DNA from: Hyphomonas sp. Mor2
GTDB taxonomy: Bacteria > Pseudomonadota > Alphaproteobacteria > Caulobacterales > Hyphomonadaceae
Length of the DNA: 64,000 nt
NCBI RefSeq assembly: GCF_001854405.1
Contig: NZ_CP017718.1
Coordinates: 1,550,001 to 1,614,000, forward strand
Reading direction: 5' to 3'
Below are positions 14,491-16,737 of this stretch, one piece after another. Each line of letters starts with the position of its first letter. Position 1 is the first letter of the stretch. The notes under the pieces are model-generated. The model ran no database searches. It saw only the letters and a program-made list of their open reading frames with translations, and had not been told where the DNA came from. Position numbers and translations under genes: made by a program.

Positions 14491-16737
14491 ATGTCTGCAG
14501 AGAGTCGTAACGCACAATTGCTGGAAACAGCGATGGAAGAAGGATTGATCAGCGCGGTGATGCCGCTGTCGGACCTGTGCGCAATCCCGCTTACAAATCT
14601 GCAATCGAAAGACGATGCCAGCGCAGCGGCGACACATCAAAGGCTGAACCGCACCAGCAAGCTGGCCATGGCCGAACTTCTGGAAGGGCTTGGCGATGCG
14701 CCGCAAAACGCCGAATTGGCAGAAGCCGTCGCCCGCGGTGTCCCGCTCGCCCTCATCGAGGAAGCGCTGCAGCAAGGCCAGGGATTTGAAGCGCTGGCGA
14801 CCGCGTTCCGCAATGATGCGATCGAATCGGCTGCGCCTCCGGCCTGTGTGACGAGCGGCGATCTCACGGCCGAACAGATTGACGATATCCGGCGGGCGGG
14901 CGTCGGAACCTATATCGCCAAGACGGAACTGCCAGACACGGCGACCCCCGCGATCGCCGTCGACATTGCCCGCTTCATTACGCCGGACGGGTTTGAAGCC
15001 GACGTGCTCGATGATCTGATCACCGCCGCCTGTGATGAGCAAGATGATGGCCTGGTGCTGGTCCCGTGTGGCTTGTCCGGCGCACTCCTCGGCCTTGGCT
15101 TGCCTTATAACGCTGAGAGTGGACCGGCATTGGCGGCGCTCTGCAAACTCACCCTGGCCATCGCCAAAGGCACGAGCTTCACCAAGAAGCATGCCGAAAC
15201 GCTGGGCCTGGAGCCGCGTACCGCGCGCAAATCCAAGCGCGATGTGTCACTCGCGCTTGTTCCGCTCTCGGCCAAGGCCCTGTCCCGCTTCCAGCCCATC
15301 TCTCAAGGCCTGTCGACGATGACCTCCCTGGTCGAAGCCCTGGAAGAAGATACGCCCAGCCTGCACCTGTTGGCGCGACTCGGGTTGGCCCGCAGCGCCC
15401 CTGAAACTCTTCCCGCACTGCTGAGCGAGATCAGCGCCGCAGCGGATCTCGAGCTGATGCCGCATTTCAGCGGCGACATTCTGCGAACACGCGGATTTTC
15501 CACGCAGGCGATTGAGAAAGTCAAAAGCGCGCTCGGCGAAGGCCTGCCTTTGAACGCAGCCTTCTCCCGCTGGGTGTTGGGCGACGATATTATCTCGAAT
15601 GACCTGCGCCTGGCGCCGGAATCCTTTGATGCGGATGGCCGCGCCCTGCTCAAGACGATTGGTTTCAGCAAGCGCGAGATCGAGGAAGCCGAGGACGCCC
15701 TCGACGGACGCCCCGACAAGCTCGCCAGTGCTGCATTGGAACAGGCCGGAATCAGCCAGACACTGAGCAAGGCGGACATGGTCACGCTGGCCGCCGCGCT
15801 TCAGAAATCAGCGGATATGCCAATCGTTCTTGGACTGGCTGGCACCGGAGAGCTGGATTTGACGACAGTGCTGGACGCCGACCTCTCGGCCTGGCTGCCT
15901 GCGCTCGACACAGAAGTGGATCGCCTCACCGCAGACCGGATGGAGCATATCACCGCCTTGGCCGAAGACCTGATGGCCGAAGACGCGGCGCCGCAAACCT
16001 ATATTGAAGCCCCAAGCGGGGTGTCACGCACGCGGCTGCCGGATCGGCGCAAAGGCTATATCCAGAAGGCGACGGTTGGCGGCCACAAGGTCTATCTGCA
16101 CACGGGTGAGTTTGATGATGGCTCGCTCGGTGAGATCTTTATCGACATGCACAAGGAAGGCGCCGCTTTTCGCTCGCTGATGAACAATTTCGCCATCGCG
16201 GTCTCGCTCGGCCTGCAATATGGCGTGCCGCTGGAAGAGTATATCGACGCCTTTGTGTTCACGCGGTTCGAGCCAGCCGGCGAGGTGACCGGCAATGACC
16301 AGATCACACGTGCGACGTCGATCCTGGATTACATCTTCCGCGAACTGGCCGTGTCCTATCTCGCCCGCGATGATCTCGCAGAGCTCGGCGATGTGAGCCA
16401 TGATGGCCTTGGACGGGGGCTCGAAGACGGGATTGAGAAATCCCAGGCCCAACCCCTGCCGGACGAAGCAGCGCATCTGATCTCAAGAGGCTATTCGCGG
16501 GGCCAGATCCCGGACAATATCGTCATCCTCAATCGCAAGCGCGAAGAACGTGAGGCGGAGCTCGCCGAGGAGGCCATCGAGGCAGAAACCGGATCCGAAG
16601 ACGCGGACGCCCCGACCTACCTGCCGGATGCCTGCGAGAATTGCGGCAGCTTCACGCTCTATCTCGACGAGGTCGACAATGCGACGGCCTGCGACACGTG
16701 CGGTTTCGTCGGCAAGATCGAAGCGAATGAGCAGTAA
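14491..16737 (+). CDS. NrdJ-derived TSCPD and zinc-ribbon protein
   Basis: The product is about 748 residues. Residues from about 512 to 640 ([60 protein letters not shown]) are the TSCPD domain found at the C-terminus of B12-dependent ribonucleotide reductase NrdJ, and a zinc ribbon (C715, C718, C734, C737) ends the chain. Upstream stretches ([11 protein letters not shown] near 200-210, [14 protein letters not shown] near 330-345, [12 protein letters not shown] near 389-400) look like decayed NrdJ segments. No catalytic NPCSE-like motif or glycine-rich substrate loop is seen, and full NrdJ exceeds 1,000 residues. The start ATG has GGAGG nine bases before it. Function unknown. Confidence 0.75.

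Follow-up and report, generated by a model that had tools for sequence, protein, structure and literature searches.

A probably non-catalytic NrdJ orthologue that keeps its TSCPD domain in Hyphomonas sp. Mor2 and other Alphaproteobacteria

The window analysed here, a 64,000-nucleotide stretch of the Hyphomonas sp. Mor2 genome, contains at 14491–16737 (+ strand) a gene whose product recalls the B12-dependent ribonucleotide reductase NrdJ and appears to have lost the means to reduce a ribonucleotide. The question raised by this locus is why such a gene has been kept. A preliminary description had taken it for a degenerate paralogue of NrdJ that retains the TSCPD domain and a four-cysteine ribbon. 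Derivation from NrdJ and retention of these two parts were borne out by Pfam, NCBIfam and an alignment to the R. sphaeroides NrdJ structure 7b9p. The simplest reading of the sequence evidence, however, is that the gene is no paralogue but NrdJ itself, vertically inherited and inactivated in place. Beyond the preliminary description, the inactivation was found to span most of the order and to recur in the class, with TSCPD as the constant part. Forms of this kind, predicted to be non-catalytic, are called dead below, and NrdJs that look catalytically competent are called active.

Retained and lost parts of NrdJ in the window protein

The frame at 14491–16737 encodes 748 residues and is unbroken from its ATG at 14491 to the stop codon, with GGAGG nine bases upstream of the start. 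A 126-bp intergenic region (14365–14490), the promoter side of the gene, separates it from a divergent NDUFA12-type gene (13975–14364, − strand); this region is conserved in close relatives and contains one GANTC site. In 12 of 13 g5 loci (among L096–L106, L108 and L110) the sequence TGATTC(G) occurs 21–54 bases before the aligned start; it lies at −15 in L100 (g9), and the window has GAATC at −73. The upstream TGATTC(G) site presumably resembles a GcrA/CcrM-type methylated GANTC promoter. No Rfam family, such as the cobalamin riboswitch, was found at the gathering threshold near 11 loci (9 active, 2 dead).

The window protein is far shorter than long NrdJ (748 versus about 1220 residues), and profile matches were concentrated at its C terminus. 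A Pfam search returned TSCPD only (PF12637, residues 525–620, 42.4 bits against a cut-off of 22.8), with no match to Ribonuc_red_lgC (PF02867) at E values up to 1. The NCBIfam NrdJ models likewise matched mainly the C-terminal part, NF005736 giving 304.4 bits (cut-off 1737) with its best stretch at residues 510–700.

Alignment allowed the protein to be divided into segments. Residues 1–317 (14491–15441) are a remnant of the reductase barrel, 14–15% identical to active NrdJ in the window's family, from which the radical and active-site cysteines are absent; the NxCxE finger-loop motif that carries the radical cysteine was not found in the protein. Residues 318–410 (15442–15720) correspond to the insert domain of long NrdJ (residues 740–826 of the R. 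sphaeroides enzyme) and are 62% identical within the family. They are followed by a degraded final part of the barrel (residues 411–508, 15721–16014), identified by alignment comparison, and by the TSCPD or IscU-like domain (residues 512–632, 16024–16386), whose identity is 80–84% both with active NrdJs and with the dead proteins of the order's other families. Beyond a low-confidence linker, a conserved ISRGxSRGQ segment (residues 658–680, 16462–16530) was recognised from the alignment and the model, and a CxxC-x15-CxxC ribbon (C715–C737, 16633–16701) lies near the C terminus, where the redox pair found in active NrdJs is absent. Columns invariant in a 60-row alignment fell mostly within residues 513–630, and the four cysteines of this putative zinc ribbon (C715, C718, C734 and C737) were invariant as well.

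NrdJ landmarks upstream of TSCPD had also been proposed, and these fared unevenly. The insert-domain pieces stood: [11 protein letters not shown]...[11 protein letters not shown] aligned to residues 740–826 of R. sphaeroides NrdJ (PDB 7b9p, whole-sequence E 1e-5), and the structure of that enzyme (7b9p/7b9q) matched window residues 320–406. The GLGLPY segment fell in the correct order in the NrdJ alignment, but the piece alone was non-significant (−0.1 bits).

A structure model built from 60 aligned sequences had a mean pLDDT of 82.5 and a pTM of 0.61, residues 634–684 falling below pLDDT 50. The N-terminal part was predicted to be folded, with most ten-residue blocks at pLDDT 85 or more. The full model matched R. 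sphaeroides NrdJ best (PDB 7b9p, E 4e-6), though with a TMq of only 0.32, and a complete barrel with the radical cysteine was not seen. Foldseek searches with the C-terminal model gave no match with E of 0.001 or less (best E 0.18); IscU/SufU, TFIIB and TFIIS-complex structures lay below this threshold among unrelated folds with like scores.

The residues lost were examined by comparing 21 active NrdJs with 24 dead forms. Fifteen cysteine columns were conserved in the active proteins, and only the four of the tail CxxC...CxxC were filled in every dead row. The radical cysteine, two assigned active-site cysteines and two tail cysteines were absent from 24 of 24 dead forms, and two more columns held scattered cysteines. 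Positions 197 and 485 of L012 were cysteine in 21/21 active and 0/24 dead rows; we take these to be two further active-site cysteines. The same counts (21/21 and 0/24) applied to L012 positions 1221 and 1233, the C-terminal redox pair as assigned after the tail described in PMC5704485.

A larger alignment set comprised 56 dead forms (23 f1, 12 f2, 10 f3 and 11 f4) and 31 active NrdJs. NPCSE was present in 0/56 dead and 30/31 active proteins, a count that checks the choice of rows and is not an independent sample, the dead rows having been chosen by low NF005736 scores or P0001 matches. The one active exception, L183 (1937–5668), scores highly as a full-length NrdJ but reads SPCSE at this place in the finger loop. 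The four ribbon cysteines were kept in 56/56 dead forms, L102 having one extra tail cysteine, and the six-cysteine tail in 31/31 active ones. In the 80-locus set 23 loci were without NPCSE, of which at least L054 and L078 are truncated by the contig edge and were kept out of the dead class.

In S. nassauensis NrdJ, C920, C923, C936 and C939 were modelled as zinc ligands and C933 and C945 as the redox pair, with some doubt left on the tail assignment by the zinc measurements (PMC5704485). The cysteines missing from the dead forms are precisely those that correspond to C933 and C945, and the counterparts of the other four are kept; this pattern of loss supports the published assignment of the zinc ligands. 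Judged by its residues, the window protein is an NrdJ that has lost in place its radical finger loop, active-site cysteines and tail redox pair, together with about 40% of its length, in agreement with the earlier view that it is apparently non-catalytic.

Gene order and distribution

The gene occupies a slot with the order aroQ-accB-accC-aat-DUF2155-mlaD-NDUFA12-[gene] (accC at 9456–10796, + strand, in the window), which is common to dead forms and active NrdJs, including some active NrdJs of the same order. NDUFA12 adjoined the dead gene in 29/30 loci of the window's family (L090–L119) and in 28/28 loci of f2, f3 and f4 (L188–L215). For active NrdJs, NDUFA12 was within the stretch in 16 of the 57 NPCSE loci of the 80-locus set, two of these (L036 and L047) having it farther from the gene. 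Of the 17 genomes of the order whose NrdJ looks active, 10 carry it in the slot (8/10 f5, 2/7 f4), the stretches fetched for the others being without NDUFA12. Class-wide, 27 stretches upstream of active NrdJs held NDUFA12 with accC (14), NDUFA12 without accC (4) or neither (9). Orthologous position is thus indicated by neighbours that the dead forms share with part of the active ones, and because the same slot holds full-length NrdJ in many other Alphaproteobacteria, the gene was read as NrdJ and not as a paralogue.

Paralogy was rejected on a second count. The window genome, complete in a single 3.63-Mb contig, gave one TSCPD match and one NrdB match, and no other NrdJ was found in it. The sole PF02867 gene found there, a 645-residue frame, was taken as NrdA, and an NrdJa-type barrel partner, as in the split NrdJab, was not found. 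This excludes, for the window genome, the suggested role as a modulator of NrdJ. In six other genomes of the family (G060, G049, G027, G005, G022 and G046; L082–L087), a second unbroken PF02867 gene was present besides NrdA (frames of 582–743 residues), and in G049, G027 and G022 a TSCPD match lay within that second frame.

Downstream, the slot is marked by a pentapeptide-repeat gene (16861–17610, + strand), whose product has an apparent signal peptide by eye and which adjoins many nrdJ slots of the order, whether active, dead or empty. Functional coupling between the two genes was considered and set aside as plain synteny, because the pentapeptide gene also adjoins active NrdJs and persists where the slot is empty.

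All 61 genomes sampled from the window's family, the Hyphomonadaceae, contained a homologue (P0001 match), so neither chance nor an assembly error, a worry raised at the outset, explains the observation. G001, an assembly of 520 contigs, showed it only as a short N-terminal piece in a 323-residue frame. Among 249 genomes of the order, 62 scored above 1100 bits with the long-NrdJ model (52 over the curated cut-off) and the next best scored 407 bits; 177 had partial matches only and 10 had none at E 1e-20. The 177 include at least one case, G061, in which the match was read as a short accessory NrdJ-like gene and not a dead long one, because the nrdJ slot is empty there. TSCPD was matched in 237/249 genomes; in G089, one of the 12 without a match, the domain is interrupted by a run of N (L174). 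NrdB was matched in 245/249, and its presence was rejected as uninformative when considered as an explanation for the loss of catalysis.

The slot was empty, NDUFA12 being followed directly by the pentapeptide gene, in six genomes (L169–L173 and L175): 3/3 of f4 g20, and 3/4 of those of f2 g11 whose slot was read, L192 (f2 g11) keeping the gene. In G250 the homologue (L168, 2820–5194, − strand) is split over two frames between the N-terminal part and TSCPD, which may be a sequencing error or a true break.

The genus Caulobacter falls within this distribution. A Caulobacter vibrioides control genome gave a long-NrdJ match below the cut-off, and the named Caulobacter loci read were L016, L026 and L062. 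In PMC6538847, dNTP production is counted as a use of B12 and CCNA_01966 is labelled NrdJ, grouped with NrdE and NrdB as proteins of nucleotide reduction; the legend of panel D there lists NrdE as B12-dependent and does not list NrdJ. If CCNA_01966 resembles the Caulobacter loci read here, its protein would not catalyse the dNTP step. Annotations of a B12-dependent ribonucleotide reductase in Caulobacter and its relatives probably refer to dead genes.

Dead forms elsewhere in the class and the reverse case

In a class sample of 337 genomes, 205 matched an active barrel query at 1e-100 and 214 matched the C-terminal module of the window protein at 1e-20. Outside the order, 12 genomes had the module and no barrel match at that threshold; 11 of these (all but G429) were fetched, together with G312 and G289. 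NPCSE was missing from the frame read in 12 of the 13 loci, the exception (G289) being an active NrdJ. These twelve fall in seven alphaproteobacterial families beyond those of the order: f13 and f102 (three genomes each), f31 (two), and f45, f104, f154 and f164 (one each).

The forms differ widely in length. In f13 the frames were 282 and 289 residues with TSCPD and the four-cysteine tail, a third being cut near a contig end, and in f102 they were 277–280 residues with TSCPD and no ribbon; the whole barrel is gone in both. The f31 stop-to-stop frames were 530 and 984 residues, the latter probably shorter in reality because NDUFA12 overlaps it, and frames of 1229, 667, 918 and 812 residues were read in f45, f104, f154 and f164, respectively. 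In the 11 forms other than the cut G591, alignment with active NrdJs showed no cysteine at the radical position, at either of the assigned active-site positions or at either position of the redox pair. All four ribbon cysteines were present in f13 (2/2) and f154, and absent in f102, f31, f45, f104 and f164. NDUFA12 adjoined the gene in all of these outside forms but that of f154. The TSCPD frames of 277–289 residues, and one more cut near a contig end (L280–L285), occupy the ancestral nrdJ slot in genomes of 1.2–1.4 Mb. TSCPD was kept in every dead form seen, which outside the order is partly by construction, TSCPD being in the query. On the evidence of these frames, the ribbon is dispensable in some lineages, and so is the whole barrel with its insert domain.

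Inactivation very likely happened more than once in the class. In a wider AccC tree of a chosen subset (53 rows) f102 grouped with two active Pelagibacteraceae loci (99/95), and five changes between dead and active were required (5–7 in bootstraps), of which well-supported branches force two; this single-gene tree is without f31, f154 and f164 and has long branches for the small genomes. Rows L254 and L257, whose implausibly long branches in an initial AccC tree were put down to wrong-strand translation, were dropped together with five near-duplicates, and the program omitted L246. Within the order, a single clade of dead forms was rejected (p 1e-11) in a test without one f2 row that has no gene and is nested among the dead forms, probably owing to that omission. 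With that row included, neither one clade of Caulobacterales dead forms (p-AU 0.58) nor one clade of f4 (0.56) was rejected, and the number of inactivations within the order may be one or two.

The reverse case was also found in the same order. In G225 a 902-residue NrdJ frame (L176, 1505–4213, − strand) has NPCSE and the six-cysteine tail, and is without the insert domain and TSCPD; no TSCPD match was found anywhere in that genome. The loss looks recent, because in a congener, G271, the matched pieces are separated by additional sequence roughly as long as the two parts together; it is seen in one single-contig genome. Six genomes of the class had a barrel match without a module match.

Possible roles of the retained TSCPD domain

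Constraint on the two ends of the protein was compared directly. Mean identity of TSCPD (residues 512–632) to active NrdJs from outside the order was 80% for dead f1 proteins and also 80% for active f5 proteins, whereas the same comparison over residues 1–317 gave 14% and 65%. In the other dead families the latter region was 22% identical between f2 and active f5 and 26% between dead and active f4, and it was 18–26% identical between dead families of the order. Within the window's family TSCPD was 92% identical. Against close relatives (six pairs) its pN was 0.000–0.011 and its pS 0.58–0.79, as compared with a pN of 0.13–0.23 and a pS of 0.58–0.74 for residues 1–317; pN was well below pS in all regions, although synonymous sites are near saturation and the ratios are rough. 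By these alignments, the constraint on TSCPD is indifferent to the apparent ability of the protein to reduce nucleotides.

Because the same loss recurred in several other alphaproteobacteria and the domain was kept, TSCPD is very likely to have a separate role. The C-terminal domain of class II reductases has been linked to oligomerisation (PMC5704485), and the long class II C termini have an IscU-like domain for which oligomerisation was suggested and whose role was described as little understood (PMC9669993). The window protein is probably a pseudoenzyme in which TSCPD would serve as an oligomerising, IscU-like scaffold and bind a candidate conserved partner in a job independent of catalysis. 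Long alphaproteobacterial NrdJ would then be bifunctional, and the second job would be the reason that the gene is retained although class I NrdAB can supply dNTPs. The conserved TSCPD surface would contact another copy, another macromolecule or both. Such a partner might be protein or nucleic acid, the barrel remnant and the ribbon acting as lineage-specific adapters. With a barrel that is only 14–15% identical here and is lost in certain other lineages, neither contact with it nor electron transfer to an active site is likely to explain the conservation of the TSCPD surface. Nor would the job be needed everywhere, the gene being cleanly absent from the six genomes with an empty slot.

On balance we lean towards a broader form of this proposal, in which TSCPD is an autonomous, widely needed alphaproteobacterial module riding on NrdJ and nucleotide reduction is the dispensable half. 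If so, the reductase half has been repeatedly discarded where a class I enzyme takes over, with the protein of about 280 residues in 1.2–1.4 Mb genomes as the extreme.

Among other explanations, the one that survives best, while still unlikely, is that the partner is a nucleic acid, the [15 protein letters not shown] segment and the ribbon contacting DNA or RNA and having once tethered dNTP synthesis to DNA. R513, R519, R520 and K526 are invariant in the 60-row alignment, with K533 nearby, and the weak Foldseek matches included 1pft (TFIIB N-terminal domain, E 0.49) and 7unc_O (a chain of a Pol II complex with TFIIS, E 0.18); all structural matches were below significance, however, and the ribbon was lost in several dead lineages. 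A role in regulating class I NrdAB, for which no second reductase was found in the window genome, is doubtful, whether it acted through NrdA binding or through mixed oligomers. It would suit the 245 of 249 order genomes in which NrdB was found, and a report (PMC5704485) that the class II C-terminal domain mediates dNTP-induced oligomers. Yet G155, G198 and G241 (completeness 95, 93 and 78) have full-length NrdJ and a TSCPD match with no NrdB match, which makes NrdAB an improbable sole partner for a domain with a single job, and residues 1–317, where an NrdA-like surface would most likely lie, belong to the least conserved portions of the protein. Another enzymatic activity on nucleotides, residing in the barrel remnant, would fit an N-terminal part that is predicted to be folded and has pN well below pS, but is very improbable given the 18–26% identity of residues 1–317 between the order's dead families, the lack of a conserved cysteine or NxCxE, and forms of 277–289 residues in which this part was not seen. 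Least probable is a functionless gene decaying before loss, which the six empty slots and the split gene of L168 might suggest and which the matches in 61/61 family genomes, the low pN in every region and the conservation of TSCPD within the family argue against.

The dead NrdJs offer a natural separation of catalysis from a little-understood domain, whose role can thereby be tested in organisms without an interfering class II reductase. Among the matches listed in the literature, which covered few subscription papers, there was no catalytically dead cellular NrdJ, and of the two papers that contain the term TSCPD neither, by title, concerns the function of the domain.

Inactivated reductase large subunits retained for other jobs have a precedent in the non-catalytic R1 homologues of herpesviruses, which differ from the NrdJ remnant in being viral, of class I type and in retaining different parts. 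The closest known system is long NrdJ itself (R. sphaeroides type, NF005736, 7b9p), which occupies the same slot and has homologous insert, TSCPD and ribbon parts; the window protein differs in lacking NPCSE, the active-site cysteines and the tail redox pair, and in a residue 1–317 region that is about 14% identical. NrdJb of the split NrdJab, described in PMC5704485 and PMC9669993, is a separate chain with an IscU-like domain and zinc finger, like the 282–289-residue f13 forms. NrdJb works with NrdJa, whereas in the window genome a barrel partner was not found and the tail redox pair of the protein is gone. The IscU-like domain of class II C termini in PMC9669993 was taken, by the description and position given there, as the same region as TSCPD, consistent with the weak IscU/SufU matches. 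In that account the domain is part of catalytic enzymes and oligomerisation was suggested for it; here it survives without apparent catalysis.
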